IMG/VR virus record: IMGVR_UViG_3300017788_000049
Span: 1 to 43,886 of that record
Strand: one strand, 5' to 3'
Length of the DNA: 43,886 nucleotides
From: a virus
Shown here in pieces: positions 10,501 through 43,853 of the stretch. How positions within the stretch are numbered: the stretch's first letter is position 1; the number at the start of each line of letters is the position of its first letter. The notes beneath the pieces are model-generated. The model was not told where the DNA came from. It made no database searches and saw nothing but the letters and a program-made list of their open reading frames with translations. A program made the translations under genes and the position numbers.

Positions 10501-13500
10501 GAGGTTGCCACAGTTTCTGGTAATGCTAGTATTTCATCTGCAGCATCGGTATTTGGCGGTACATCGGTAAGATTCTTTAACACTGTTGTAGGAACTGCTG
10601 GTGAAGTATCGAACGATCACATAACATTTGCACCTTCGGGTGATTATAATATATTTGGAAATTTTGTTATAGAGTTTAATTTTATACCAATTACATTATC
10701 GTCTACAAGAGATTCTATAATTTTAGATAGAAGGCTAGCGGAACCTGAGTCTTCTATAACTATTGGAGTTGACGACGCAAGCTGTTTATTTGTTTATATA
10801 GACGGAGGCAAAGTCATACAAGGAACAACAGTATTAACAGCAACAGATACATACCATATTGCACTTTCGAGATTTAACGGAGAATTAAAACTATGGTTAA
10901 ACGGCAATCAAGAAGGCTCGACATACAACGACTTTACTAATTATCTTGCTGATAGACCAGTTAGATTGGGTGCAGACTTTGATGGAGAAAACGGTATTCG
11001 TGGATATATCGACGAACTTAGAATTAATACCGGAGTTGCTAATATCTACGTCAATCCATTTACTCCGCCAGTTTCTGAATTTGGAGAAGATATTGTTGGC
11101 GCATCACCCGCTAATGATGTAACATTTAAAGTAGCTTCGATCGGGCCTAGCGGGGAAGTATTAACTGTTAATCAATTCACTGGAACAGCCCCAGTATCAA
11201 ATAAATTATTCTTAAGAAATTCTTCCGGGACTCTTCAAACTCCTGTTGGTTCTGGTGCATCGTTTAATCTATCTAGAATTAATGGTGCATATACCGGATT
11301 ATCGATAGCAACAGCAGGTAATGGATATTTGCCCAACAATCTGATTAAAATTGATCAATCACTATTAGATGGCGCCGGCGACGACTCTCGTAGTGTTATA
11401 CTTCGGGTTATATCATCTTCTGTTACCGGACAAATACAATCTATATCTTTGGTATCCGGTACTCCTATTTCAACAGGAACTCCTATCGAGATCTTTTCGA
11501 CATTTGATATTAATGATGCGTTAGTCGCTGATTTACCGGCCACTAGCACTTTTAGCTTTAGTGCAATCGCAAAGATAACAGTAACATTTCCGACAGGTCA
11601 TGGGTTAATTCCTGGTTCTGGAGTATCTATATCTGTAACCTCAGGAGGAGTAAATCATTCTCTGCTAAATGGTCCTGCATTTATAGAAGAAGTTCCTAAC
11701 AAGCAATCATTTAGATTTACAGTTAGATCTAGCGGCAATATTGCTACTTCTCCTCCTATTACTGGCGTAGTTTATCCGAGGACGGATGCATTTTTCTTGC
11801 ATAGACCGTTCGACGGCGGAGTTTTATTAAGTACCGGTTCTCCGAGCCACGGAGCTCAGGCAATTCGTATGAGTAAAAAATATATTCGATATCAATCTGG
11901 TAAAGGAGCCATGTATACTACCGGTGCTCTATTTGCCCCTTCGTATGATATTCGATCAATGTCTGCAGATGGTATCGCGGTTAATAGTGTAATAACTGTG
12001 GTTGTAGATGATAACGATCACGGATTACAGATTGGATCGGGCATTAGAATCTCGGGTGCTGTTACTGTGGGATATGATGGTGATTATTCTGTAGTGGAAC
12101 TTGTTGACGAGCGTGTATTCAGAATAAGAGCTAACACGCAATTAGGATCAACAAGTCCAGAAATTGGTTCTAGTTGTCAAATGGCACACATTTCTTGGCA
12201 CGGTGCGTTTGTTCGAGCAGGTGCGTTCGATGATCAAAATGGAATCTTTTTTGAGTACGATGGTCAAGAGCTAGCGGTAGTGAGAAGATCTGCTACGTTT
12301 CAACTTGCCGGAACAGTTTCTATTAATGCAGATTCTAATCTTGTAACAGGTTCAAACACTAGATTCACCGAACAGCTGATAGAGGGAGATCGCGTAGTCA
12401 TACGGGGAATGACACATGTAATTTCGGACATTATCAATAATAACTCTATGACCGTAAATCCAGACTTCCGAGGTTTTACAAATGTTACAAATGCTAAACT
12501 TTGTCTTATAAAAGATTATAGAATACCACAAAGCGAATGGAATCTTGATAAGTGCGACGGCACAGGCCCCAGCGGTTACATTCTTGATGTTACTAAAATG
12601 CAGATGATCGGTTTGCAGTATAGCTGGTACGGTGCCGGATTTATTGATTGGATGTTTAGAGGACCAAACGGCGATTATGTATTTGCGCATAGATTAAGAG
12701 GAAACAATTTAAACACAGAAGCTTACATGAGAACCGGTAACTTGCCAGTGAGATACGAAGTACTCAACGAAGGAGCAAGATCTCCATTAGTTTCAGAGAT
12801 TTCATCTACAGCATCATCGATGACAGTAAAGGAAGGAAAATATTTTCCAGAGGCCGGAGTAGTGTATGTTGAGAACGAATTGATATCGTATACTTCTAAA
12901 TCTGGAAACTCTTTGGGTGGATTAACCCGAGCTGCACCTTATGTAAATTTCTCTGCAGGTTCTCAAAGAACATTCACAGCGGGTCCTGCTGCAACTCATC
13001 CTGTAGGTTCCGGAGTGATATTAATTTCAACAACAGCAAGCCCGTTAATCAGCCACTGGGGTAGTGCATATCTAATGGACGGACGATTTGATACTGATCG
13101 TGGTTACATTTTTAACTATCAAATTACCAACATTACAGTAACAAACATTAAAACTACTGCATTTGCGATTAGACTAGCACCAAGTGTATCTAATGCGATC
13201 ACAGGAGACTTGGGGGAAAGAGAGTTGTTAAATCGAGCTCAATTGTTATTGAACTCCCTAGAGGTTGTAGGAGGTACATCCGCATCGATAGACTCTTTTA
13301 TTATTGAAGGCGTATTAAATCCTTTAAACTATCCGGAGAGTCCTGCTAGTATTACGTGGTTTAGTCTTACATCAACTGCGCAAGGTGGGCAACCATCATT
13401 TGCTCAAATTGCCAACGGTTCTAGTATTACATTTGCAGGTTCTGGTAGTCAAGCGGCTAACCCAACACAAAATTTTGCAACTACACCCGCTATTAGATTA

Positions 13501-13917
13501 AGACAGGCGGTATTTACAAGTTCTACAGTAAATCTTGTGCGATTGGGTTGGGTAGTAAGTTCTACCGCTGGTATTCAACCGGGAACAGTTGTTGAAAGAA
13601 TCCAGGTAAACACGCCGTCGATAAATCAAACAACTATCACAATCAGTAAAGACGTTACCGCTGGCCCTGGCGTCACTATAACGTTTGCATCGCCACAGTT
13701 TGCACAACCGGGAGAACAGGTGTTTGCGTTCGCCGCACCGCAAGGCTCTCGAGAAGTTCTTGATTTAAGTGAATTAAAAGAGCTAACATCTACAGCAATT
13801 GGAGGAAGAGGTACGTTTCCTAACGGCCCGGATGTGCTAGCCATTAATATTTATAGCACTGGTTCTACTCCAGTTATAGCTAACTTGATTCTTCGATGGG
13901 GTGAAGCGCAAGCCTGA
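7510..13917 (+). CDS. Giant fibre/baseplate-type virion structural protein with LamG-like domain
   Basis: Complete 2135-residue paralog of the first gene. The N-terminal part has three Cys-containing helical segments of one family: CARDLGY near residue 53, CTRDVKY near 188 and CERDLGY near 356; the preceding gene has only two. Residues about 972-1185 form a LamG/concanavalin-type jelly roll, starting LLAHFNG and ending GYIDELRI, a fold that often binds sugars. The HRPFDGG...RYQSGKG block is near 1431 and the DGTGPSG...YSWYGAG block near 1683, as in the paralog. The start ATG at 7510 follows a weak AAAGAG. It ends two bases from the convergent small gene, with no terminator hairpin between. 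Virion location (fibre or baseplate) is inferred; the sugar-binding domain suggests host recognition. Confidence 0.75.
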   Translation: MAKLQVKQYNFKPGLSYLSNARPNAYDLILANKTFLKKEVIGFLNEQVLDSTKCARDLGYLIDAVGYDITLGTNYNSLFLGLAEYNSLEVTPTVLRTIARVRDEIPARVILNATALTRSNAFFNEVIDIAQNGRNAANPVSFTNPSNATASRIAAKDRLVANKDFLAAEVNAWVGVTYPSHNHDVSKCTRDVKYAIDALCYDILYGGNSATYDQARFFFYFDSANNPGIDPTHRLQTVAAYGRLKTIVSEVVRGISVTKTTTGTTPNNLNQSISGANADAGDATILQNLVQITADVVAATTRTAADAVLAGITKTFPSVTWADGDLQLAKTGIDSNKNNIINFVNAFASYIFNTEKCERDLGYVLDAYLFDLRYGGNEETREVAAKYWIGDVPQIDGNRIVEIEAHLFLRDLINTNILTNTQADTYQVVVSQVIDLTKTAESSSTTIITNLAGILTSVIEFGTTVLPLLITGVGRIKFPKKYEQSQILLITNTTKNEIIYDFSDPGAGGVWEFIRDESDIFPRILEAAQGYTQLTFFYNTSNHSETDSIQIFVDVAELKTRPYDFGTDAMERMRMAAPQAMLDADFEYGLQPTKWQTIATSRGYPSTYEIPGSDLLVTTVSTDASTSTNSIGPSLITVTTVSPHFLSVGIPISIKALASSITGFSRAEGTFLVNSIINSNSFTYYSKSRVGNINGEVLSTTYTQLRVAGFYTGASIGSPTFTVFSQGASGNSTVSLLSAQGENTIAFTGTAPSVGDPVVSTTSRFFATSSGTSMIVTAVNIGSIAVGHRLTGGSIPAGTFIVSQQTGTSGGPGTYITSVPTSLLASTQVTGSSFSLGTQVTAVRGSGGPTVTAYANQNVEVGATSFNLIDASGISVGQGIDNGSGRIQEISSISGNTVSFLSARTTRIIGSNASYTNLASTSITGNGTGLIISLSSNGSDQFSTVSVDFGGENYSVNDTIKILGTDLEYYTDTKLLAHFNGTNNATSGDGFLNIANGEVATVSGNASISSAASVFGGTSVRFFNTVVGTAGEVSNDHITFAPSGDYNIFGNFVIEFNFIPITLSSTRDSIILDRRLAEPESSITIGVDDASCLFVYIDGGKVIQGTTVLTATDTYHIALSRFNGELKLWLNGNQEGSTYNDFTNYLADRPVRLGADFDGENGIRGYIDELRINTGVANIYVNPFTPPVSEFGEDIVGASPANDVTFKVASIGPSGEVLTVNQFTGTAPVSNKLFLRNSSGTLQTPVGSGASFNLSRINGAYTGLSIATAGNGYLPNNLIKIDQSLLDGAGDDSRSVILRVISSSVTGQIQSISLVSGTPISTGTPIEIFSTFDINDALVADLPATSTFSFSAIAKITVTFPTGHGLIPGSGVSISVTSGGVNHSLLNGPAFIEEVPNKQSFRFTVRSSGNIATSPPITGVVYPRTDAFFLHRPFDGGVLLSTGSPSHGAQAIRMSKKYIRYQSGKGAMYTTGALFAPSYDIRSMSADGIAVNSVITVVVDDNDHGLQIGSGIRISGAVTVGYDGDYSVVELVDERVFRIRANTQLGSTSPEIGSSCQMAHISWHGAFVRAGAFDDQNGIFFEYDGQELAVVRRSATFQLAGTVSINADSNLVTGSNTRFTEQLIEGDRVVIRGMTHVISDIINNNSMTVNPDFRGFTNVTNAKLCLIKDYRIPQSEWNLDKCDGTGPSGYILDVTKMQMIGLQYSWYGAGFIDWMFRGPNGDYVFAHRLRGNNLNTEAYMRTGNLPVRYEVLNEGARSPLVSEISSTASSMTVKEGKYFPEAGVVYVENELISYTSKSGNSLGGLTRAAPYVNFSAGSQRTFTAGPAATHPVGSGVILISTTASPLISHWGSAYLMDGRFDTDRGYIFNYQITNITVTNIKTTAFAIRLAPSVSNAITGDLGERELLNRAQLLLNSLEVVGGTSASIDSFIIEGVLNPLNYPESPASITWFSLTSTAQGGQPSFAQIANGSSITFAGSGSQAANPTQNFATTPAIRLRQAVFTSSTVNLVRLGWVVSSTAGIQPGTVVERIQVNTPSINQTTITISKDVTAGPGVTITFASPQFAQPGEQVFAFAAPQGSREVLDLSELKELTSTAIGGRGTFPNGPDVLAINIYSTGSTPVIANLILRWGEAQA

Positions 13918-33501: not shown

Positions 33502-33957
33502 GTGAATTGGTACGATCGAGTTTCTAAAGATATTAGTACTATTCCAGATGCCGTAATATTTTATGAGGCTGAATTATTAGAAGCTAAAAAAGATGCTCGA
33601 ATAGCAGGAAATATTGAACGAGCATCGGCAGCTATGCCTGGTATTGTGGAAACTCGATTTAACCAACTCCAAGAGATTGAGGCCATCTTAGAATATCTTA
33701 ACATAGAACTAAGGCGTCTTCGCAGTCAACATTTTCGTAAGTACCTTGAAAATTATCAACGCAGTCTGTCCTCACGTGACTGTGAAAAGTTTGTTGAGGG
33801 CGAGGCCGATGTTGTAGATTTTGAAAAAATCATCAACGAATTTGCTCTGTTAAGAAATAAATGGCTAGGTATCATCAAAGCACTGGACCAAAAACAATGG
33901 CACCTCAGTAACATCATTAAACTTCGTGTTGCCGGCATGGAAGACGCCACTCTGTAA
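33502..33957 (+). CDS. uvsY: UvsY-like recombination mediator (probable)
   Basis: A 151-residue helical protein with GTG start directly after the previous stop, preceded by GAGG. Length is close to T4 UvsY (137). The second half, RDCEKFVEGEADVVDFEKIINEFALLRNKWLGIIKALDQKQWHLSNIIKLRVAGMEDA, has the same layout as the C-terminal helices of T4 UvsY (RYEKSEMKTVLSADKD, then LQYWGILLDFCSGALDAIKS and FAIKHIQDMRAFEAG). UvsY loads UvsX onto gp32-covered DNA. Its place right after gp32 and uvsX supports this. The match is by pattern only, and no search was run, so the name is provisional. Confidence 0.6.
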   Translation: MNWYDRVSKDISTIPDAVIFYEAELLEAKKDARIAGNIERASAAMPGIVETRFNQLQEIEAILEYLNIELRRLRSQHFRKYLENYQRSLSSRDCEKFVEGEADVVDFEKIINEFALLRNKWLGIIKALDQKQWHLSNIIKLRVAGMEDATL

Positions 33958-33972
33958 ATCAAAGAAATATGC

Positions 33973-33988
33973 GCAGATAAATATCTGC
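33973..33988 (+). promoter_or_regulatory. Palindromic late promoter abutting a start codon
   Basis: The octamer GATAAATA (33976-33983) lies inside a perfect inverted repeat, GCAGATA AA TATCTGC, that ends one base before the ATG at 33989. Octamer-to-ATG spacing is 5 nt and no Shine-Dalgarno is present. This appears to drive the plus arm of the glycan island. Confidence 0.7.
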
Positions 33989-34753
33989 ATGAAAAACATT
34001 GTATTGGTTACTGGGGGTTTTGATCCTCTACATTCGGGACACATCGCTTATTTTAAAGCAGCTAAAACTCTCGGCGATATATTAATCGTAGGCCTCAATT
34101 CTGACGAATGGCTACAACGCAAGAAAGGAAGAGCGTTCATGCCATGGAACGAAAGACTATGTATCGTTAATAATCTTTCAATGATCGACGAAGTCTATAC
34201 ATTTAATGACGAAGATGGATCTGCTAAACATTTTATTCAACAGGTTAGAGCACACTATCCCGATTCTAAATTGATATTTGCCAACGGCGGGGATCGAACC
34301 AAAGATAATATACCAGAAATGGATGTGGTAGACTCCAATATTGAATTTGTGTTCGGCGTCGGCGGCGAAGATAAAAAGAATTCTAGTTCGTGGATTTTAA
34401 CTGAATGGAAAGCCCCTAAAACTGAACGTTCTTGGGGTTATTATCGTGTACTACACGAAAATGGAAAGGAAGTTAAGGTTAAGGAATTAACAGTAGATCC
34501 GGGTCGATGTCTTAGCATGCAGAAACATAAGGATAGAGCAGAACATTGGTTTATCGCCGAAGGTACAGCTGAAATTTATACCGTTAATAAAAGTTCTGAT
34601 CATGAGTATTTTGGAACATATCACAAACATCAAAACCTTTTTATAAACAAAAACGAGTGGCATCAATTGTGTAATCCTGGAAATGTTCCGCTTAAACTTA
34701 TAGAAATACAATATGGCGAACGATGCGAAGAAGAGGATATCGAAAGAAAATGA
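33989..34753 (+). CDS. Nucleotidyltransferase-cupin fusion for sugar activation
   Basis: A 254-residue two-domain protein. Residues 1-125 form a cytidylyltransferase-like domain: GGFDPLHSGH at 8-17 holds the HxGH-type motif, ILIVGLNSDEWLQRKKGR follows, and FANGGDR is near 105. This resembles heptose-1-phosphate adenylyltransferases and glycerol-phosphate cytidylyltransferases. Residues about 150-254 form a cupin like the C-terminal phosphomannose isomerase part of ManC: LTVDPGRCLSMQKHKDRAEHWFIAEGTAEIYTV and WHQLCNPGNVPLKLIEIQYG. The pair could activate and epimerise or isomerise a sugar phosphate. It opens the glycan island and overlaps the next start (ATGA). I chose 33989 because it follows the late promoter. 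Confidence 0.8.
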   Translation: MKNIVLVTGGFDPLHSGHIAYFKAAKTLGDILIVGLNSDEWLQRKKGRAFMPWNERLCIVNNLSMIDEVYTFNDEDGSAKHFIQQVRAHYPDSKLIFANGGDRTKDNIPEMDVVDSNIEFVFGVGGEDKKNSSSWILTEWKAPKTERSWGYYRVLHENGKEVKVKELTVDPGRCLSMQKHKDRAEHWFIAEGTAEIYTVNKSSDHEYFGTYHKHQNLFINKNEWHQLCNPGNVPLKLIEIQYGERCEEEDIERK

Positions 34754-35436
34754 AAGATATCATTCCTGTCTTTATAGGTTATGATCCAAGAGAGGCGATT
34801 GCATATCATGTTTGTGCAAATAGCATTATTAGAAATTCTAGTCGACCAGTTTCGATCATTCCTGTAGCATTAAATTTATTTAAAGATTATAGTGAAACAC
34901 ACACGGACGGCAGTAATCATTTTATCTATACTAGATTCTTGGTTCCTTGGTTAATGAATTGGACTGGTCACGCTATATTCATAGATGGCGATATGATTGT
35001 TCGCGGAGACATTGCAGAACTTTGGGATATGAGACAGTTAGGTATGGATATCCAAGTAGTCAAGCATGATTACAAAACAAAAATGAAAGAAAAATATTTA
35101 GGAAGTAAAAATGAAGATTATCCTCGAAAAAATTGGTCTAGTGTTATTCTGTGGAATTGTAATAGCTTTCCTAACAGGAAACTTACTCCCGAGTTCGTCC
35201 AGCGAGCCACTGGTGCCGAGCTCCACCGCTTCACGTGGTTAGATGATGAGCGTATAGGTGAATTACCTAAAGAATGGAATTGGTTACCTGATGAATACGG
35301 GCCGAATCCGGATGCCAAGTTATTACATTATACATTAGGAACTCCCTGCTTTCATGAATTTGCCAATACTCCTATGGGCGATGAGTGGCATAAAGAACGC
35401 ATCTTAACAGAGTATTGTCAACAAAGAAATATATGA
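34750..35436 (+). CDS. Glycosyltransferase, GT8-like
   Basis: A 228-residue GT-A type glycosyltransferase. IPVFIGYDPREAIAYHVCANSI near the N-terminus, FIYTRFLVPWLMNWTGHAIFIDGDMIVRGDIAELWDM at 58-94 with the metal-binding DGD at 79-81, and KNWSSVILWNC near 130 fit the GT8 superfamily. A final HYTLGTPC segment is also GT8-like (His and Gly near the C-terminal metal site). It transfers a sugar from an NDP donor to an unknown acceptor, in the cytoplasm as no signal peptide is visible. Start and stop both overlap neighbours by ATGA, so it is coupled in the island operon. Confidence 0.8.
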   Translation: MKDIIPVFIGYDPREAIAYHVCANSIIRNSSRPVSIIPVALNLFKDYSETHTDGSNHFIYTRFLVPWLMNWTGHAIFIDGDMIVRGDIAELWDMRQLGMDIQVVKHDYKTKMKEKYLGSKNEDYPRKNWSSVILWNCNSFPNRKLTPEFVQRATGAELHRFTWLDDERIGELPKEWNWLPDEYGPNPDAKLLHYTLGTPCFHEFANTPMGDEWHKERILTEYCQQRNI

Positions 35437-36233
35437 GTTGGATTTTTTTAAACAATACTAAAAAATCTCAATATGTTGAATTGTTTGCTAAAGGTTGTAA
35501 TTCGTTTGCAACTTCTTATGACGACTTTATATACGAAGAAAATAAGAATCCTCTAGTTATTAGAGGAATTTTAAAAGATAAATTAATAAAACGTTGTTGG
35601 GAAGATAATAGAACGTTTTATTATTTTGATACAGGATATATCGGCAACGATATCTATGATAAAAATCCAAACGGTTATAAATTTTGGCACAGAATAGTAA
35701 AAAACGATTTACAACACAGAGAAATCATTTCAAGACCGGACGATCGTTGGATTAAATTAGGTAAAAAAATTAAACCCTGGAAATCCCCAGGCCGCAAAAT
35801 AATCATCGCAGCACCTGACGAAAAACCTTGTAAGTTTTATAATATAAACTTAGAACAATGGCTAGAAGATGTTACCAGTACATTAAAAAAATACACTGAC
35901 AGGCCTATTGTTGTTAGACAACGTCCTGCAGATAGGATAGACAGAAAGCAAAACGTTCCATTAGTACAAGAATTAGAAAATGATGTATTTGCTTTGATAA
36001 CATTCAATAGTGTTGCAGCAACAGAAGCAATTTTAAATGGAATTCCAGCATTTACTTTAGCACCAGCAAATGCTGCTAGTCCTGTGTGTCTACAAGATTT
36101 AACCAAGATAGAAACTCCCTATTACCCAGATAAGGATAAATTATATTCATGGGTCTGTCATATAGCGTACGGTCAATTTCATACAGATGAATTAAGAAAC
36201 GGTACAGCAAAAAGAATTTTGGAAGAATTATGA
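35433..36233 (+). CDS. KpsC/KpsS-like glycosyltransferase, copy 1 of 3
   Basis: A 266-residue protein. YTDRPIVVRQRPADR at 154-168 and DVFALITFNSVAATEAILNGIPAFTLAPANAASPV at 184-218 match the C-terminal donor-binding half of capsule-synthesis transferases (KpsC/KpsS type, GT-B fold). A trailing IETPYYPDKDKLYSW...DELRNGT segment is shared with the copies at 36909 and 41812. The N-terminal half is poorly conserved among the copies, as expected if acceptors differ. Length is shorter than bacterial KpsS, so it is one catalytic unit or a reduced form. Overlaps both neighbours by ATGA. Confidence 0.65.
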   Translation: MSWIFLNNTKKSQYVELFAKGCNSFATSYDDFIYEENKNPLVIRGILKDKLIKRCWEDNRTFYYFDTGYIGNDIYDKNPNGYKFWHRIVKNDLQHREIISRPDDRWIKLGKKIKPWKSPGRKIIIAAPDEKPCKFYNINLEQWLEDVTSTLKKYTDRPIVVRQRPADRIDRKQNVPLVQELENDVFALITFNSVAATEAILNGIPAFTLAPANAASPVCLQDLTKIETPYYPDKDKLYSWVCHIAYGQFHTDELRNGTAKRILEEL

Positions 36234-36934
36234 AATTACATTTTATTACAAGTATATCAAAAACTTATTGGAATGATACTGCAAGATTTTGTATTCCTAC
36301 TTGGAAATTGCCCGGTAAGGTAACAATCTATGTCGATCAAAGTGGCGGCGACCTAGATTGGATTGTTGAAATTCCATTTCATAAGGAATTACTAAATGTT
36401 CCAGAATTAAACAATAAAGAATTAGAAAGAGCAAAGGTAAGAAAATTTTGGGGTAAATCTTGGGCACAAATAGATGCTATAAGAAATAGATCTGTTGACG
36501 AGCGTGTAATATGGATTGATTCTGACGTGGAACAGATTGCGGATACAGACGAAAATGATTTTAACTTTAATTTCAGAGAACCATTTGCTATTATGAATTC
36601 TGGTGATAACGAAGATTGTTGGGAAACCGGTTTAGTTATTTTCAATCAACAATATGGTAAATTAAATGTTGTTACTCGTCTATATGAAAAGGTATGGCGC
36701 GATGAAGAGCAATTATTTGGTTTGTTTAGACCATATGATTCATATGTGTTAGGTCATGTTGCAGAAGAACGCACCTTTTTAAATTTATGTGATCAACCTT
36801 GCAAGAATATCGATGCCCTATCTAATTCTAGATTTGGTAAATTTTTTAAACATTGGATTAATAAAGATAATAAAAAACTTTTGCAAGATCTAAAAACAGT
36901 ACAATCAAGTGAAAACAGTAGCGATATATCATAA
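36230..36934 (+). CDS. Glycosyltransferase-like protein, GT-A type with DSD motif
   Basis: A 234-residue protein with LHFITSISKTYWNDTARFCIPTWKLPGKVTIYVDQ at the N-terminus and a DSD motif in VIWIDSDVE at 93-101, the usual place of a GT-A metal site. An NSGDNEDCWETGLVIFNQQ stretch at 123-141 and EERTFLNLCDQPCK near 182 resemble the acceptor-site region of such enzymes. I cannot give a CAZy family. The gene overlaps the previous one by ATGA and the next by 26 bases, so it belongs to the same operon. Confidence 0.65.
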   Translation: MKLHFITSISKTYWNDTARFCIPTWKLPGKVTIYVDQSGGDLDWIVEIPFHKELLNVPELNNKELERAKVRKFWGKSWAQIDAIRNRSVDERVIWIDSDVEQIADTDENDFNFNFREPFAIMNSGDNEDCWETGLVIFNQQYGKLNVVTRLYEKVWRDEEQLFGLFRPYDSYVLGHVAEERTFLNLCDQPCKNIDALSNSRFGKFFKHWINKDNKKLLQDLKTVQSSENSSDIS

Positions 36935-37844
36935 ATCAGTTCCTAATGGAAAAAATTTAGAAAAGATACAACTTTTACAAAATTTTTCTCAGGGAGTTCG
37001 TACTGTAGGTGATACTGTACTTGATATAGATCACTATGGTGTAGTTGCAGCCGATGTTGGCGTAATACAAGGGTGGGTGTCTGGAAAACCAGATGCACAA
37101 CATACAATATTAAGAAACAATGTTATTACTCAACAAAAATTTTTGAATAGATACGTAGTTTGTGCCGATAGTAATTTATTTTTATATGCCGATACAAGCA
37201 ATCCTTTACATTATCTAAGATACAGTTTCAATGATGTTTTTCCTAACCGAGGAATATACTGTGATACAGAAATTGATCCCATGAGGTGGATTAAAATTTC
37301 ACAAAATCTTAATATACATCTTAAACCATATAGAACTTTCGGTGATCATATTTTAATATTATTACAGCGCAATGGTGGGTGGAGCATGTCTGGATATGAT
37401 GTCCAGGATTGGGCAATATCAGTTATTGATACTATACGATCTTTTACAGACAGACCAATTGTAATCAGAGCACATCCCGGAGATAAAGCATCTAGGACTT
37501 ATCTTAATCCGGATAGTCCTCACCGCAAAATTAAATTTTCAAAACGTGTAAGATTAAGTAACAATGTTAAATTAACTGATGATTTAATAAATTGCTGGGC
37601 TGCAATCAATTATAACTCAAGTCCATCTGTGGGCGCAGTGATCGAAGGTGTTCCAATTTTTGTAACAGATCCTCTTAGAAGTCAAAGTGCAGAAGTTGCT
37701 AATAAAGATTTATCACAAATTGAAAATCCACTGCTGCCAGATAGACAAAAGTGGGTCGAAAGATTAAGTATGTTTCATTGGAATTTTGATGAATTAAAGT
37801 CGGGCGAATGCTGGCAGCACATGAGGAAATTTATTAAGATCTAA
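36909..37844 (+). CDS. KpsC/KpsS-like glycosyltransferase, copy 2 of 3
   Basis: A 311-residue protein with GTG start inside the end of the preceding gene. FTDRPIVIRAHPGDKAS at 179-195 and CWAAINYNSSPSVGAVIEGVPIFV at 229-252 carry the same donor-binding pattern as copies 1 and 3; IENPLLPDRQKWVERL...DELKSGE follows. Residues 1-140 include YHKSVPNGKNLEKIQLL and DHYGVVAADVGVIQGWVSGK, unlike the other copies. The Arg-x-His-Pro element is the phosphate/donor contact in related enzymes. It ends the plus arm and its last 11 bases overlap the end of the convergent GT6-like gene. Confidence 0.65.
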   Translation: MKTVAIYHKSVPNGKNLEKIQLLQNFSQGVRTVGDTVLDIDHYGVVAADVGVIQGWVSGKPDAQHTILRNNVITQQKFLNRYVVCADSNLFLYADTSNPLHYLRYSFNDVFPNRGIYCDTEIDPMRWIKISQNLNIHLKPYRTFGDHILILLQRNGGWSMSGYDVQDWAISVIDTIRSFTDRPIVIRAHPGDKASRTYLNPDSPHRKIKFSKRVRLSNNVKLTDDLINCWAAINYNSSPSVGAVIEGVPIFVTDPLRSQSAEVANKDLSQIENPLLPDRQKWVERLSMFHWNFDELKSGECWQHMRKFIKI

Positions 37845-38496
37845 GAGATGCAGCATCTTTTTTAACAACAGCAATCTTAGCCTTTTCGGTGTGTTTAAGA
37901 TTACAATAAATCGATGGCAGCACTACTGTCGGTGGATTATCTAAACAATATCGATTCCAGTGGCTTTCATCGTGCCATTCAGCAATCACTCCATTTTGAT
38001 GATCTATATCGATTCTGTTAGCTAATTCTTTAGCATCTTCTAAGAACCTTTTTCCACCTTGAAACCCACCGCAATAATAAGGAGCGATTATACCCTTTGG
38101 TATTTCTTTTTCAGAGATATAAGCAAGACTTTTTGGATTCCTATCGTAATTACCTGCACGTTTTTTAAATTTTCCGTGAATAGTAGCTACTCTGTCTCCT
38201 AAAATTTCGTCTCCTACTTCTCCTAAGACTAGCATGTCGACATCTATGTAATAATAATAATCTTTTTTAGGATAATTGTTTAATTTTTGAATTAAATGAT
38301 ATCTACCTAATGTCATCCATGGCCATTCTCGATGTTCTGTATGTATCACTGTTACGTTACCCGTAAAAGGTTGATTGGTAAAAAGAAATACTTCAACATC
38401 ATGATTTTTTAAAAAATTCTTTTCTACTGTTTCTAATAATGCAGGAGCAAAATCTATGTATTTGTTTGTTGCTATTACTATCAATCCTACTTGCAT
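37834..38496 (-). CDS. Glycosyltransferase family 6-like (ABO/alpha-1,3-Gal type)
   Basis: A 220-residue protein with the GT6 signature set: EWPWMTLGRYHLI at 57-69, DVD metal motif in YYYIDVDMLVLGEVG at 81-95, YYCGGFQGG at 140-148 and AEWHDESHWNRY at 172-183, the last being the catalytic/acceptor element of the histo-blood group A/B transferases. Such enzymes add Gal or GalNAc in alpha-1,3 linkage. I recall a GT6 member in a marine cyanophage. I chose the ATG at 38496 because it overlaps the upstream stop by 10 bases in the same way as the neighbouring gene; an upstream in-frame start at 38526 is possible. No membrane anchor is present, unlike the vertebrate enzymes. Confidence 0.82.
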   Translation of the reverse strand: MQVGLIVIATNKYIDFAPALLETVEKNFLKNHDVEVFLFTNQPFTGNVTVIHTEHREWPWMTLGRYHLIQKLNNYPKKDYYYYIDVDMLVLGEVGDEILGDRVATIHGKFKKRAGNYDRNPKSLAYISEKEIPKGIIAPYYCGGFQGGKRFLEDAKELANRIDIDHQNGVIAEWHDESHWNRYCLDNPPTVVLPSIYCNLKHTEKAKIAVVKKDAASLRS

Positions 38497-39071
38497 ATTG
38501 CGGCCACCGATTGTGAATGTATCCAATGTAAAGATTCAACTTTTCTCGAAGTATATTTTTCTATGGTATTTTTTAAAGTAAATGGAGTATAATAACAATT
38601 ATGGTCAGGATGGACTACCTCTAAAAAAGTTCCATTAACATATTCTGTTCTAACCTGTAGCAGAAATGCATCAGGTGTTGTAAAAATTAATGTTCCTTTT
38701 TTTGAATCTACTAATTTTAAAAATTCTTGAACATTTCCGACATGTTCTAACACCTCTGGAATTAAAATTATGTCGTAGTTATTTGGAATCTTATTCCAAT
38801 CGTAATAGATTTCTCCGTTGGAAACTCTTAACTTCTCTGCATGTTCCATGTTTGCATCAATGCCATCGATTATTTCGGCATGCTTAGATAGTTCTATATG
38901 TAAACTAGCATTTACATCAGTGATAGGCCAATCAACAAATCCCACATGTAATACTTTTTTGTTTTTAATTAACGGAACTAAAAATTCTAACCTATTTGAA
39001 TTTTTAAGAGAGTCGTTAACTACTGTTTCTTGGACATAATATTTTTTAAAACCTTTTCCGTTTACTTGCAT
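38487..39071 (-). CDS. SAM-dependent methyltransferase
   Basis: A 194-residue class I methyltransferase: VLHVGFVDWP near 40-49 is motif I, HAEIIDGIDANMEHAEKLRV follows with the acidic residue for SAM ribose (IDGIDAN), and NNYDIILIPEVLEHVGNVQEFLKLV around 98-122 is the motif II region. LIFTTPDAFLLQ corresponds to the next strand. It resembles the Methyltransf-11/23 group often found in glycan clusters, so a sugar or O-methyl target is plausible. Start lies in a 10-base overlap (ATGCAAGTAA) with the epimerase gene, and its end overlaps the GT6 start by ATGCAAGTAG. Confidence 0.75.
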   Translation of the reverse strand: MQVNGKGFKKYYVQETVVNDSLKNSNRLEFLVPLIKNKKVLHVGFVDWPITDVNASLHIELSKHAEIIDGIDANMEHAEKLRVSNGEIYYDWNKIPNNYDIILIPEVLEHVGNVQEFLKLVDSKKGTLIFTTPDAFLLQVRTEYVNGTFLEVVHPDHNCYYTPFTLKNTIEKYTSRKVESLHWIHSQSVAAICK

Positions 39072-39889
39072 TTTAATAGCTCTTTAATATTATATATTTT
39101 TTTCATAAATCTAGAAGGATTAGACAGTACGCTTACTTCTAGGTCTCCTTCTCTTCTAGAACCAACAGAAACATCAAACTCGCAATCGTTGATTTCCTTA
39201 AACATACTAACCATTTCTTTTACTGTAGTACCAACGCCGTGTCCTAGATTTTCTATTTGGTTAGTTGACTCTGAAATTCCTTGAATAACAGCGTGACAGA
39301 TTTCATTTACATGACAATAATCTCTGATGCAGGTTCCGTCTTTGGTATTATAATCGTTGCCGAAAATTGTGAAACTTCCTGTATTTGTTGCATTAATTAA
39401 AGCATAGAACAGCCCATCTGGATTAGTTGGATTAATTCCATCGCTACCGACTACATTATAAAATCTAAAAATCGTAAAAGGAATTTTGTTTTTCTTGCAG
39501 AATTGAAATACAATGTCTTCCATTGCTTTCTTAGAAATTCCATAAGGACTGTTAAGTTGTTCGGCGGCCCCAGTTGAGGCGATAACTAATCTTTTAGTTT
39601 TTATGTTTTTAAGAACATTCAATGTCCCTAAGATATTGGTTGTATAAAATTTTACGGGATCTTTAACACTTTCACCTACTGATACTTCGGCAGCTAAATG
39701 TACAATACAGTCGTATTCGCCGTTGATTTGCTGTAAATCTAAAATGTTTTGTTTGTAAAATTTTTTAACAGGTACGATAGAATCGTTTTTATCTAATCCG
39801 TGGATTTCTAATTTATTATCTTTTTTTAGAATCTGTGTGAGATGCGAACCTATATATCCGCTGTTGCCTGTGATTAAAATCTTATCCAT
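39062..39889 (-). CDS. NAD-dependent sugar epimerase, GalE-like
   Basis: A 275-residue short-chain epimerase. GNSGYIGSH at 8-16 is the dinucleotide-binding loop, CIVHLAAEVSVGESVKDPVKFYTTNILGTLNVL at 61-93 follows, STGAAEQ near 106 gives the Ser of the triad, YGISK near 116-120 is the Tyr-x-x-x-Lys pair, and FGNDYNTKDGTCIRDYCHV near 175-193 is the substrate site typical of UDP-glucose 4-epimerase. It could supply UDP-Gal or UDP-GalNAc, which would suit the nearby GT6. It is shorter than E. coli GalE (338), mainly in the C-terminal region. Eight-base overlap with the upstream GT25-like gene. Confidence 0.85.
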   Translation of the reverse strand: MDKILITGNSGYIGSHLTQILKKDNKLEIHGLDKNDSIVPVKKFYKQNILDLQQINGEYDCIVHLAAEVSVGESVKDPVKFYTTNILGTLNVLKNIKTKRLVIASTGAAEQLNSPYGISKKAMEDIVFQFCKKNKIPFTIFRFYNVVGSDGINPTNPDGLFYALINATNTGSFTIFGNDYNTKDGTCIRDYCHVNEICHAVIQGISESTNQIENLGHGVGTTVKEMVSMFKEINDCEFDVSVGSRREGDLEVSVLSNPSRFMKKIYNIKELLKCK

Positions 39890-40568
39890 TAAATGTACTC
39901 CAGAAATCGTTCTTCCCTCTAACTAAAGACTTTTTTCCATCTTCTCCAATAAGTGCTCTTCCCATAATATGACTATGCACTTGTATTTTTACTATTGCCG
40001 ACATCATAGCGTTATCGGATGGTAACCAAGTTGTTTTATACATAGATATCAGTTTTTCTGCAGCTACAGGCTTGATAACATACCCCGGAGTACCGGGCAT
40101 CGAAGACTGCCAGTATCCTTCTGCCCTTGGGTCTCCTGTTGGGTTAGTTAGATAATGATAATACTTAGCTGATTTAGTTGGATTTCCAAAAACTGTAATT
40201 AATACCTCCTCAAACTCTACAGGAAAATATTCTCTAATAAAAAAAACATCGTCTTCAAATACCATAATTGGCTCGTTTAATTTAACACATTTCTCCCATA
40301 ACCTATAGTGACTGTCAAAGCATCCCATTTCTCCCGGTTTCTGTTGACTGTCTCGATATTCATCTGAAAAAGGAGTCAACGGCCCATTTTTAAAATTCCA
40401 TGGGTGATATCTCCGACCTTCTCTAGTATACTTTTCTTTTGTCTGCGGACCGTACGAGCCTTCGAACAGTTCGGCATCGATGCCGAAACTTTGTAATTTT
40501 TCTTTAACATCAGTTGCTGTCTTTAGAGATGCTGGAATTTTACTTAAATGTATGATGAATGCTTTCAT
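39882..40568 (-). CDS. Glycosyltransferase family 25-like (LPS type)
   Basis: A 228-residue protein with the GT25 layout: FIIHLSKIPASLKTA at the N-terminus, PGEMGCFDSHYRLWEKCVKLNEPIMVFEDDV at 78-108 with the EDD metal motif at 105-107, MPGTPGYVIKPVAAEKLISM near 153-172 and WLPSDNAMM near 178. GT25 enzymes include LPS galactosyltransferases. The start is ATG at 40568, in an ATGA overlap with the upstream stop; a TTG at 40574 is in frame but less likely. The gene is the third in the minus-strand arm. Confidence 0.82.
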   Translation of the reverse strand: MKAFIIHLSKIPASLKTATDVKEKLQSFGIDAELFEGSYGPQTKEKYTREGRRYHPWNFKNGPLTPFSDEYRDSQQKPGEMGCFDSHYRLWEKCVKLNEPIMVFEDDVFFIREYFPVEFEEVLITVFGNPTKSAKYYHYLTNPTGDPRAEGYWQSSMPGTPGYVIKPVAAEKLISMYKTTWLPSDNAMMSAIVKIQVHSHIMGRALIGEDGKKSLVRGKNDFWSTFNG

Positions 40569-41374
40569 TGCCAATAACTTTCCGATCGTTTTACCCTAAG
40601 ATCTTTGCTGTGACTTTTTCCATAATTTTTTCTTTCGCCCTTGAGATGATCGAGATATGCTCCCCACTCACAATTAATCAAAGGGTGTCCTTCGCCGGTA
40701 ATAACTCCTTTGCTCCAATTGTGTTGTGTTAGATAAGGGAATTTATTTCTAACTGAATCAAAAACAAAACTATCATGCCATTCGTCTAATTGAAATATTC
40801 CGGATTCTGCTTTATCGTACATTCGTTGAAATTCCATTAAAAACATTTTTGTTTGTTCTGATCGAAGATTCATAGAGTAAAGACCGCATTCTGAAAATTT
40901 GTTATCTCTACCAAGATAACAAATATCTATATTGGCAGGAATTAACCTTTCTAGATCTCTTAGAGAAATAGAACTATGACACACCATATCGGCATCCATC
41001 CATATTAATATATCTGCGTCGGTATTTTTCGCACAGTGAAAAATCGCATAAACTTTGTGTGCAAATCTCACGGCATCCCATTTAAAAGGTTTGTGACTGT
41101 CTTTTCTTGCAGCCAATCTCGGAAATGTTGATATATCTCCATTAGCATGTGGAATGTTTTTCCACGTGTTTTTGAATGCAAGTAGGTCTAGAACACTCGA
41201 TTCGAGATCTATTAATTCGATATTTGATTCTGGGGGTATGCGAGGATTAACTTTTTCAGGATAAAGATAGAGCTTAACTTCGTTAGGCCAATTCTTAACG
41301 AAAGTTTCGATCATTCTTTGAGCATATTGATAGTATCCGCTTTCGTTAAATGTAGTAACAACGGCATATTTCAT
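40565..41374 (-). CDS. Glycosyltransferase-like protein, GT-A type with DAD motif
   Basis: A 269-residue protein: YAVVTTFNESGYYQYAQRMIETFVKNWPNEVKLYLYPE at the N-terminus, RFAHKVYAIFHCAKNTDADILIWMDADMVCHSSISL at 103-138 with DAD at 127-129 as the metal motif, and FQLDEWHDSFVFDSV near 194-208 as a likely acceptor region. The C-terminal INCEWGAYLDHLKGERKNYGKSHSKDL resembles a nucleotide-binding tail seen in marine phage relatives. The ATG at 41374 is preceded by GGAAGAAG and lies two bases after the upstream stop; an in-frame start at 41392 would overlap that gene. Confidence 0.7.
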   Translation of the reverse strand: MKYAVVTTFNESGYYQYAQRMIETFVKNWPNEVKLYLYPEKVNPRIPPESNIELIDLESSVLDLLAFKNTWKNIPHANGDISTFPRLAARKDSHKPFKWDAVRFAHKVYAIFHCAKNTDADILIWMDADMVCHSSISLRDLERLIPANIDICYLGRDNKFSECGLYSMNLRSEQTKMFLMEFQRMYDKAESGIFQLDEWHDSFVFDSVRNKFPYLTQHNWSKGVITGEGHPLINCEWGAYLDHLKGERKNYGKSHSKDLRVKRSESYWQ

Positions 41375-41376
41375 GA

Positions 41377-41772
41377 TTATTTCTTCTTCCAAAAATGTAA
41401 ATCTTTTGTAGAATCAACTAAATCGTATTCGTTCTCGGTCAGTCTTCTTACAATTTTTTTGCTTGGCAATTCTTGATATTTTAGTAGTATACCAGCTCTA
41501 CCCCGATCAGCTACTCCAATAAAATTACCAATTTCTAACAAATATTTTTCATCGATCGCTAAAAAATTAATTCTAGGCAACGTCTTGGTTTCCGAGAACG
41601 ATAATTTGGGAATAATATTTCTTTTTTTAATTTTAGGGCTCTGAATTTCATATAAAAAAACAGTGTTAAAATAATCTACAATCTCTTCTAGGTAAGGAAA
41701 TTCCTCACCGACTACTATTGCAGACTCTTTTTCTGATATAATATGAGATATTCTCGTTAATAATTTGCTCAT
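41377..41772 (-). CDS. Unknown protein opening minus arm of glycan island
   Basis: A 131-residue protein, first in the minus-strand arm, 2 bases before the next gene. The strands IVVGEEFPYLEEIVDYFNTVFLYE and INFLAIDEKYLLEIGNFIGVADRGRAGILLKY suggest a Rossmann-like alpha/beta fold, but no nucleotide loop or metal motif is visible. The GVADRGRAGILLKYQELPSKKIVRRL segment is basic. I do not recognise a family. Context suggests a role in glycan metabolism. Confidence 0.6.
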   Translation of the reverse strand: MSKLLTRISHIISEKESAIVVGEEFPYLEEIVDYFNTVFLYEIQSPKIKKRNIIPKLSFSETKTLPRINFLAIDEKYLLEIGNFIGVADRGRAGILLKYQELPSKKIVRRLTENEYDLVDSTKDLHFWKKK

Positions 41773-41782
41773 CGACTTTTAT

Positions 41783-41790
41783 ATTAAATA
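41783..41790 (+). promoter_or_regulatory. Late promoter-like octamer ATTAAATA for copy 3
   Basis: ATTAAATA lies 21 bases before the ATG at 41812; expected start near 41796 leaves a 16-nt leader with only a weak TGG. It overlaps the divergent promoter region of the minus arm. Confidence 0.35.
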
Positions 41791-41796
41791 CTCTGT

Positions 41797-41804
41797 TATT
41801 TATT
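41797..41804 (-). promoter_or_regulatory. T4-type late promoter octamer for minus arm of glycan island
   Basis: AATAAATA on the minus strand with expected start near 41791, giving a leader of about 18 nt before the ATG at 41772. It would drive the six-gene minus arm. Confidence 0.55.
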
Positions 41805-41811
41805 GGTAAAA

Positions 41812-42645
41812 ATGAAGATAAAATTATATCGAGAAAACGGTGCATTAGGTAGCGACCCCATATTTAATGCCCTCGAAGACGGATTTCGACGACTAGGGCA
41901 TTCTATCGTGAGAAATAATGAAGACATTCCTGTTATCTGGAGTGTTCTTTGGTTTGGTCGCATGCAAAATAATCAATATGTCTATGAACAGGCCAAGAAA
42001 AATCAAAAACCGATCATGATAATTGAAGTAGGTGCATTAAAAAGAGGAAAAACTTGGAAATTATCTCTTGATAATATCAATGGGTTAGGGAAATTTAATA
42101 ATGAATCAGAATTTCAACAGGATAGATCGAAAAAATTAGGTGTGCATCTAACAGAATCAAAAATAAAACGAAAAAATTCAATACTATTGCTAGGGCAACA
42201 TGATCGAAGTCTGCAATGGCAGGGTCAACCGCCAATAAAAGATTGGTGCAAATCAAAAATTGAGGAAATTAGAAAATTTACTGACCGACCAATCATAATT
42301 CGACCTCACCCCAGATGTCACATTGGTGAATTTCAGGCAAAAAACGTGTCTTTCGAGAGGGCAAGTCCATTACCAAACACATATTCTGAATTTGACCTGA
42401 ATTTTGATCATCACTGTGCGGTTAATTACAACAGCGGTACCACTGTGCAAGCAGCCATCGGGGGGATTCCTGTGATATGTGACCCCAGTGCGCTGGCATA
42501 TCCTGTTTCGTCCCCTATCGATACTATAGAAAATCCCGAACTTCGAGATAGGTCAAAATGGTTTGAGAAAATATTGCACACAGAGTGGTTAGTCGACGAA
42601 CTTCAAGATGGTTATCCTATAAAAAGATTGATTTCATTGATCTAA
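41812..42645 (+). CDS. KpsC/KpsS-like glycosyltransferase, copy 3 of 3
   Basis: A 277-residue protein. TDRPIIIRPHPRCH at 157-170 and HCAVNYNSGTTVQAAIGGIPVICDPSALAYPVSS at 201-234 carry the donor-binding pattern of copies 1 and 2, here with the best capsule-synthase-like R-P-H-P. IENPELRDRSKWFEKI...DELQDG follows as in the others. The N-terminus, FNALEDGFRRLGHSIVRNNEDIPVIWSVLWFGR, differs. I chose ATG at 41812 over TTG at 41803, which overlaps the divergent promoter. It reads outward from the island toward the uvsW side. Confidence 0.65.
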   Translation: MKIKLYRENGALGSDPIFNALEDGFRRLGHSIVRNNEDIPVIWSVLWFGRMQNNQYVYEQAKKNQKPIMIIEVGALKRGKTWKLSLDNINGLGKFNNESEFQQDRSKKLGVHLTESKIKRKNSILLLGQHDRSLQWQGQPPIKDWCKSKIEEIRKFTDRPIIIRPHPRCHIGEFQAKNVSFERASPLPNTYSEFDLNFDHHCAVNYNSGTTVQAAIGGIPVICDPSALAYPVSSPIDTIENPELRDRSKWFEKILHTEWLVDELQDGYPIKRLISLI

Positions 42646-42662
42646 TATGTTACAATTGTCCT

Positions 42663-43853
42663 ATGAAATTCGTAGAGGATGTCTTTTTAGTCTTTGCTGA
42701 TGCTGTTGACTTTGGGCAGATACATGTACAAGGTCAAGATCTCTCCGCAATTAGAAGTTTTCAAAACTCGATATTCAATCAGAAGCACTTAACTGAACAG
42801 CAGTCAAAATATATTCTAAAATTACTACAAAAATATAAGACGATATCTTCTATTGCTGGTATTGATCTCCAGAGTGTTCTAGACGAACCAGCATGGAAAA
42901 ATCCTTTCAGGGTGTTAGATACCTCTAAAAAAATATACATAGAGGAGAATAGTCTAGGAAATATTGAAATTTTTGTTAAATTTCCATATTTTCTCAAAGA
43001 AGTATTTGAAACCGAATTCCCTAATTCTAAGTCTATTTGGGATCCGGTAAATTTGGTAAGAAAGATTGATCTAAAAAATATCAATATAATTGCTCTACAC
43101 GAATTTGCTTCAAGGCATCATATAGACATCAGTGAGGATTTTCAAAAATTGCATGATGACATTGAAGAAATATGGAATCAAGAAGAGAACTTTACTCCGC
43201 ATTCTAAAATATTAAACGGAACAGTAGTTTTAAAAAATTGTACTGATTCGGCCGAAGTCTACTTCAATCAACATAAGACCCAAAATATAGAACAAGATTT
43301 ATTTTTGGCGAAGTCCATGGGATTTTGCCTAAAAACGGAAGAAAAAAATATTGGAATAGTAGAAAAAATCGCGTCATCGACTGATAATTACTTTCGTACT
43401 GAAAATATTTTAAACATATTCGAATTATATAAAAAATTAAATCGACCGAGAATAGTTTTAATCATTGACAGGACATCTGATATCAGTGAATTTGTTGAAA
43501 ATTTTGTTGATAACGCCGATATTGCAGAAATTGACAGATCAGATATAAAGGTCTGCTTCAGAATGTCGGCAGAAGAAGATAAATCTAAAAAATTCAATAG
43601 TTGGATCAAAGAAAATAATTTAACTGGGCCTGTATTAGACGGAAAAATTTTCATATTTTCTCATAAACCAGCTAAATGGTTGTTTACTGACTCTTATGAT
43701 ACTAAAATAATTGTAACTAATTCTTTGTTCACTAGTACGAATTCGATATCGTCGAGTTGGATGAATTCGCATCATTGTGTTATTTTTGTAGGAGAAATAA
43801 CTCCTACGGTTAAACACAGAATGGCAAAAGGAAAAAATGTCGTTGAACTGTAA
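42663..43853 (+). CDS. HARP-like protein upstream of uvsW, no ATPase motifs
   Basis: A 396-residue protein. Residues 35-90 (LTEQQSKYILKLLQKYK, then DEPAWKNPFRVLDTSKKIYI) and 100-155 (IEIFVKFPYFLKEVFETEFPNSKSIWDPVNLVRKIDLKNINIIALHEFA) resemble the HARP-type annealing/strand-recognition segment found at the N-terminus of SMARCAL1-like helicases. The rest lacks Walker A and B, though it has strand-helix pieces such as RPRIVLIIDRTSDISEFV and GKIFIFSHKPAKWLF. It lies right before the uvsW-like start with a 17-base overlap, so a DNA-binding partner in recombination is possible. I recall cyanophage relatives of unknown function. I chose ATG 42663 as the first ATG after the upstream gene. Confidence 0.6.
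   Translation: MKFVEDVFLVFADAVDFGQIHVQGQDLSAIRSFQNSIFNQKHLTEQQSKYILKLLQKYKTISSIAGIDLQSVLDEPAWKNPFRVLDTSKKIYIEENSLGNIEIFVKFPYFLKEVFETEFPNSKSIWDPVNLVRKIDLKNINIIALHEFASRHHIDISEDFQKLHDDIEEIWNQEENFTPHSKILNGTVVLKNCTDSAEVYFNQHKTQNIEQDLFLAKSMGFCLKTEEKNIGIVEKIASSTDNYFRTENILNIFELYKKLNRPRIVLIIDRTSDISEFVENFVDNADIAEIDRSDIKVCFRMSAEEDKSKKFNSWIKENNLTGPVLDGKIFIFSHKPAKWLFTDSYDTKIIVTNSLFTSTNSISSSWMNSHHCVIFVGEITPTVKHRMAKGKNVVEL

Follow-up and report, generated by a model that had tools for sequence, protein, structure and literature searches.

Clusters of glycan genes have been known in phages for many years, without agreement on the target that they decorate. Such a cluster, comprising twelve open reading frames (ORFs), lies at positions 33,989-42,645 of a 43,886-nt virus fragment (IMG/VR record IMGVR_UViG_3300017788_000049; this whole stretch is hereafter called the window), and raises the question of what it makes and to what its product is attached. 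The genes are named g1 to g12 in island order, and g13 is the flanking gene of 396 amino acids (aa) (Table 1). The answer that we favour, with about even confidence, is a late-expressed, fully cytosolic, serotype-like glycan locus, whose product most likely decorates one or more proteins of the virion. The locus is a natural experiment: some near-identical phages differ by a single cassette, some relatives have the site empty, and the promoters link the island to the assembly of particles. Should the particle prove to be the target, phages would have serotypes as bacteria do, with a bearing on adsorption, host range and phage recognition; the locus also supplies a new set of soluble glycosyltransferases (GTs).

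A fixed site with a constant core and a swapped cassette

The island is a clade-wide locus, in which a constant core surrounds swapped middle cassettes, and is not private to one phage. A first-pass annotation, made from the letters of the window, had described a five-gene plus arm and a six-gene minus arm that converge, with one gene facing outward, and all twelve ORFs are present in this arrangement: g1 to g5 on the plus strand (33989-37844), g11 to g6 on the minus strand (41772-37834) and g12 outward (41803-42645). The converging arms overlap by 11 bp, and starts and stops overlap between genes. The annotation had further placed the island between a uvsY-like gene and uvsW-side genes. The upstream flank is confirmed, while uvsW itself lies outside the window; the 422-aa ORF at the window end (396 aa counted from its first ATG, hence g13) was considered as UvsW and rejected. 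Since uvsW directly follows g13 in six relatives, the site reads uvsY, island, g13, uvsW.

Relatives were collected by searching IMG/VR with UvsX, g10 and g5, which yielded ~200 loci on records that are fragments. Comparing related phages at the same locus, as had been proposed, separated two states: in the 52 contigs that carry both flanks, uvsY and g13 lay either -32 to 415 bp apart (the empty site, five contigs) or 6.8-12.9 kb apart (the island). Of the contigs found with UvsX, 23 had a UvsY of 80% identity or more and offered sufficient sequence; 20 of these contained core island genes, and the remaining three were short, yet carried GalE- or GT25-like genes. The UvsX of the window is 63-69% identical to those of the jumbo myoviruses Phosso, Atu_ph07, CBB, GAP32 and Vibrio 2.275.O; no such island follows uvsY in the four inspected (Phosso, 2.275.O, Atu_ph07 and CBB), and megablast of the island against cultured phages gave no match.

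Protein clustering of 55 islands defined six core genes, namely g1, g2, g3 and g5 on the plus strand, g10 on the minus strand and g12 on the plus strand. Between g5 and g10 we counted 34 different gene sets among 54 islands, drawn from GT25, FkbM and other methyltransferases, GDP-mannose dehydratase, RmlD-like, CapD-like (Polysacc_synt_2) and GalE-like genes; g6 to g9 of the window are one of these sets. Four loci (L187, L191, L195 and L208) have core proteins that are 92-100% identical, yet carry four different cassettes, and DNA alignment of near-identical phages showed flanks of 92-99% identity around a block that was replaced wholly (L187) or partly (L191, L195). Likewise, in the closest relative of the window (L089/L090) g2, g3 and g5 are 87-90% identical and the cassette is different. 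Several relatives carry single-ORF fusions (g1-g2-g9, g2-g3 and g2-g4), which indicates that the enzymes belong to one pathway.

It has been suggested for cyanophage lipopolysaccharide (LPS) clusters that they serve as 'stuffer DNA' (PMC3037559), and the GC content of the island (0.315-0.37, vs ~0.39-0.42 across much of the rest, upstream genes included) would suit functionless filler or a recombination hot spot that gathers GT genes. We find this hardly credible, as the frames are intact, the six-gene core is constant, the promoters are conserved, and purifying selection on the core genes is visible in the catalytic motifs, which are invariant across at least 20 diverged members.

The tail module (the sheath gene and its neighbours) is the other strongly divergent block between near-identical phages, with 67-77% DNA identity. 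In record G002 it spans 16.5-29.4 kb and diverges to this extent from G337 and G339, although the replication DNA is 92-98% identical. Such a pattern would fit a common theme of selection at the cell surface, without proving one.

Three transcription units with the late-gene box of the clade

The late-type promoters that had been ascribed to the island stood in part. The strict T4 late box, TATAAATA, is not enriched (two exact occurrences in the window vs 6.7 expected), and we rejected it as the late box of this clade, which is NTAAATA instead. ATAAATA is 33-fold enriched upstream of genes in the clade, and NTAAATA precedes 45 of 92 structural-gene orthologues and none of 35 replication or recombination genes (p 1e-8, the orthologues not being independent); at the sheath gene it occurs in 7/7 cases, at about -40. 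Within the window, boxes of structural genes lie at 138-160, 6403, 17205, 19375, 23471, 25888, 27127, 28742 and 31074. In the islands of relatives, NTAAATA recurs far above the background of 2.6% near g1 (34/49), the first minus-arm gene (44/55) and g12 (30/48), but not at the internal genes g2 (2/46), g3 (0/75) and g5 (2/55), and the window has a box at each of the same three starts. The island thus consists of three transcription units with the late-gene box, and the motif supports the late timing that had been suggested earlier. NTAAATA often lies only ~12 bp before the start codon, and some transcripts may be nearly leaderless.

Enzymes encoded by the island

Eight GTs are supported in the island: GT8, GT6, GT25, two of GT-A type and three paralogues of one family. 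Searches of Pfam and PHROGs bear out the earlier labels of GT8, GT6, GT25, epimerase, methyltransferase and nucleotidyltransferase (NT)-cupin, and leave g11 without a family, as before. The translation of g6 contains the DVD motif of its GT6 assignment. Both GT-A types hold as well. The structural model of g10 (predicted local distance difference test, pLDDT, 94.2) has a GT-A fold closest to the GT6 alpha-1,3-galactosyltransferase/GTB, glycogenin and LARGE1, with an invariant DxD (DAD), while g4 is related to g10 by profile match (95.8%), carries an invariant DxD and occurs in natural fusions with GT8.

The HxGH and cupin residues of g1 are kept in relatives. Among solved structures, the closest to g1 are ethanolamine-P and glycerol-3-P cytidylyltransferases, and in NCBIfam the ManC and RfaE domains come out on top. 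No NT-cupin fusion covering most of g1 was matched in cultured phages. Separately, we noticed that this fusion is common in the chromosomes of SAR11 and SAR86 (L257-L333: SAR86, SAR11 and Rhodobacteraceae genomes). These bacterial relatives were considered as a clue to the pathway and set aside, the gene standing alone beside polA in one SAR11 genome and beside a MATE transporter in one SAR86 genome.

The products of g3, g5 and g12 had been called KpsC/S-like. They had no match in Pfam or PHROGs, and a sequence-profile search of the PDB gave nothing real either, so we turned to structure prediction. The three are paralogues of one superfamily (hhalign 100% and 99.8%), and the model of g5 (pLDDT 90.3) had as top PDB matches in Foldseek KpsC (8fux; E 1.4e-8, probability 1.00, template-modelling score ~0.5), WbbB and, more weakly, KrkA. 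The characteristic GT-B fold of the retaining beta-3-deoxy-D-manno-oct-2-ulosonic acid (Kdo) transferases of families GT107, GT99 and GT140 is therefore found in g5 by model and in g3 and g12 by profile homology. In KpsC, WbbB and KrkA the Asp of an invariant QXXXD acts as the covalent nucleophile, and cytidine monophosphate (CMP) is bound by (K/R)XHP (PMC10148158, PMC12887879). The CMP-binding motif is kept as RAHP in g5 and RPHP in g12, with RQRP in its place in g3. At the position of QXXXD, which was assigned by eye from strand context without residue-level superposition of structures, we found QRNGG in g5 (invariant), QHxxS in g12 and PDEK in g3. Of the earlier label, the KpsC-like character thus applies to the predicted fold only, and a Kdo donor is not supported because the defining nucleophile Asp is absent.

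The g5 family is rare in bacteria (2/299 Pseudomonadota genomes) and was found in none of the 16 bacterial genomes that bear the NT-cupin; the single set of matches came from a metagenome-assembled genome (MAG) that contains phage DNA. Proteins of related structure are found in Caulobacter phage CcrColossus and Tetraselmis virus 1.

These gene identities support the view that the island holds a set for assembling an oligosaccharide. In the mechanism that we envisage, an activated sugar or polyol would come from g1, the acceptor would receive a constant core from g2, g3, g5, g10 and g12, and the outer part, with variable sugars and a methyl cap, would be the work of the swappable cassette (here GT6, GT25, GalE and a methyltransferase), an order of sugars that we infer. 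The product would be a short branched or decorated glycan assembled in the cytosol, with which virion proteins would be glycosylated before or during assembly, and its variation may be driven by adsorption, host surface or evasion.

To what the glycan may be attached

Sugar-modified DNA is common in T4-like phages, and the locus lies among recombination genes, so that attachment to hypermodified cytosine or thymine had to be weighed. PF00303 (dCMP hydroxymethylase/thymidylate-synthase type) was absent from all 11 related records searched, which are fragments but include contigs of 364 kb and 327 kb, with a positive control; a search for Tet_JBP was not usable, its control being silent. The lack of PF00303 makes DNA an unlikely acceptor. 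Nor does any of the twelve genes belong to a known DNA-GT family, and six to a dozen variable GTs are more than would be needed, which leaves this explanation very little credit and agrees with the earlier preference for virion glycosylation over nucleotide modification.

Assembly on a lipid carrier is likewise unlikely, because the initiating phosphoglycosyl transferase PF02397 was found in 0/11 records (control positive) and no membrane-like hydrophobic segment was predicted in the twelve island proteins of the window; a loose hydrophobicity limit was exceeded by 15 of 619 island proteins. This bears on whether the enzymes remodel a host surface glycan of the LPS core/O-antigen type, thereby blocking superinfection or keeping progeny off debris. 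GT25, GT8, epimerases and methyltransferases are LPS-type families, and the serotype-like variability would fit. Host-surface modification is also how Iyer et al. 2021 (PMC7824862) read similar cyanophage clusters with epimerases, cupins, HIGH nucleotidyltransferases and GTs. However, the promoters are late-type rather than early, and expression at a late stage points to the particle more than to surface remodelling early in infection. The searches also brought up neither a lipid-carrier initiator nor a flippase, polymerase or membrane protein, and core GTs as rare in bacteria as the g5 family would be odd extenders of a bacterial glycan. We therefore regard host-surface remodelling as rather unlikely.

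Soluble enzymes could also serve a small soluble or secreted glycoconjugate, or modify a host protein such as flagellin, unrelated to the particle, and g10 resembles the protein-linked GTs glycogenin and LARGE1 as well as GT6. Late-type promoters fit host takeover poorly, however, and this appears improbable.

Ser/Thr-rich segments, considered as a pointer to the acceptor, reach their highest values in the fibres (maximum 0.38 in 60 aa), and we set them aside as uninformative. The giant fibre protein (2,135 aa, 7510-13917), which the first-pass annotation had named as a candidate, is not favoured over other virion proteins, since two relatives without the island have homologues of it and a search of the 327-kb island carrier G002 detected none. 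Glycoproteins have been detected by proteomics in the Xanthomonas jumbo phage XacN1 (PMC5852040), likewise a jumbo myovirus that encodes GTs, but with only two of them. The papers searched held little on proven phage-encoded virion glycosylation. There is positional precedent in a spring podovirus, in which GT and methyltransferase genes adjoin the terminase gene, and in Caulobacter phage CcrBL9 (L216, 6916-10813), in which genes for a g5-like GT and an FkbM methyltransferase, mostly annotated as hypothetical, lie between tail protein and lysozyme genes.

Several points weigh against a late-expressed locus that acts on the virion. The late timing is taken from a promoter motif, not from transcripts, and the sequence holds no evidence for the acceptor itself; the distribution of giant fibre homologues just described does not favour the fibres. 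Moreover, LPS-core GTs also have no membrane segments, so that the absence of membrane proteins is compatible with a host-surface acceptor, which is how Iyer et al. interpret similar clusters.

Comparison with known systems

The island belongs to the phage glycan clusters, and what is new is the fixed site, the constant core, the swappable cassette, the late promoters and the Kdo-fold GTs without the nucleophile. The 'LPS' clusters of the jumbo cyanophages P-SSM2, P-SSM5 and S-SSM7 (PMC3037559, PMC7824862) likewise contain several GT families, an NAD epimerase, a methyltransferase, a HIGH nucleotidyltransferase and a cupin, and the island has the combination that characterises a cluster of the P-SSM2 kind, namely GTs with an NAD epimerase, a cupin isomerase and a HIGH nucleotidyltransferase (PMC7824862). 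The PfkB sugar kinase of complete clusters was not found among the twelve window genes, to which that search was limited. The GT6 of P-SSM2/P-SSM5 is 44% identical to g6, and the cyanophage clusters are polymorphic between relatives, like the island; they differ in genome position and core GTs, and a constant core with a swappable cassette is demonstrated here only for the island. The GT cluster of Pelagibacter phage Mosig EXVC030M has homologues of g10 and g5 (33% and 27%) in one run with methyltransferases and a sulfotransferase, but is a one-strand run of ~8 genes at another site (after RuvC), with no NT-cupin seen.

Bacterial capsule and O-antigen loci have a conserved frame and a variable central cassette that is exchanged by recombination. 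The island shows the same pattern, but it lies in a phage, carries late-type promoters and, unlike these loci, lacks a transporter, a polymerase, a lipid initiator and membrane proteins. We tentatively suggest, with rather less than even confidence, that these jumbo phages might possess a true serotype locus, in which a constant core and recombining cassettes alter the sugar coat of the particle from one near-identical phage to another by means of virus-enriched Kdo-fold GTs that lack the covalent Asp nucleophile and are fed by a cytidylyltransferase-like NT-cupin.

Table 1. Positions of the island genes, their flanks and the late-type boxes in the window
Feature	Position	Strand	Evidence or remark
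UvsY-like gene, fixed left flank	33502..33957	+	PHROG UvsY 4.3e-18; left flank in all relatives
Late-type box GATAAATA before g1, first transcription unit	33976..33983	+	NTAAATA near g1 in relatives
g1, core: HxGH nucleotidyltransferase fused to ManC-type phosphomannose-isomerase cupin	33989..34753	+	Pfam CTP_transf_like and cupin
g2, core: GT8-type	34747..35436	+	PF01501 6.5e-8; start inferred, listed ORF begins at 34723
g3, core: Kps-like GT-B paralogue	35415..36233	+	hhalign to g5 family 99.8%
g4, in some relatives: GT-A-like	36230..36934	+	Invariant DxD; GT8 fusions in L198, L199, L201
g5, core: KpsC/WbbB-fold GT-B	36909..37844	+	Predicted structure; Asp nucleophile replaced by Gly, RXHP kept
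g6, variable cassette: GT6	37834..38526	-	Pfam PF03414 7.6e-30; DxD present
g7, variable cassette: Methyltransf_23-type methyltransferase	38487..39071	-	Pfam 3.2e-6
g8, variable cassette: GalE-like NAD epimerase/dehydratase	39062..39889	-	Pfam Epimerase 1.6e-32
g9, variable cassette: GT25	39882..40574	-	Pfam 3.7e-20
g10, core: GT-A fold, nearest GT6 and GT8 structures	40565..41392	-	DAD motif invariant; weak Pfam GT2 5.2e-5
g11: 131 aa, no family, often first minus-arm gene, fast-evolving	41377..41772	-	
Late-type box TTAAATAC before g12	41783..41790	+	NTAAATA near g12 in relatives
Late-type box AATAAATA before minus arm	41797..41804	-	NTAAATA before first minus gene in relatives
g12, core: Kps-like GT-B paralogue	41803..42645	+	RXHP kept, QHxxS in place of QXXXD
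g13: protein without assigned family, fixed right flank	42663..43853	+	Directly before uvsW in relatives

Further observations in the related records

Two contigs of a Neomarinimicrobiota MAG (PBPT01000082 and PBPT01000016; L286 and L295) consist of jumbo-phage DNA with SSB, UvsX, UvsY and a full glycan island, which likely reflects either a binning error or a host link. In three relatives (L208, at 3761-5250, L187 and L186) UvsX is broken at Walker A by an in-frame insert of ~140 aa (GESG/C...HN/SGKS), which, with Cys at its start and HN before the Ser at its end, reads as a mini-intein.

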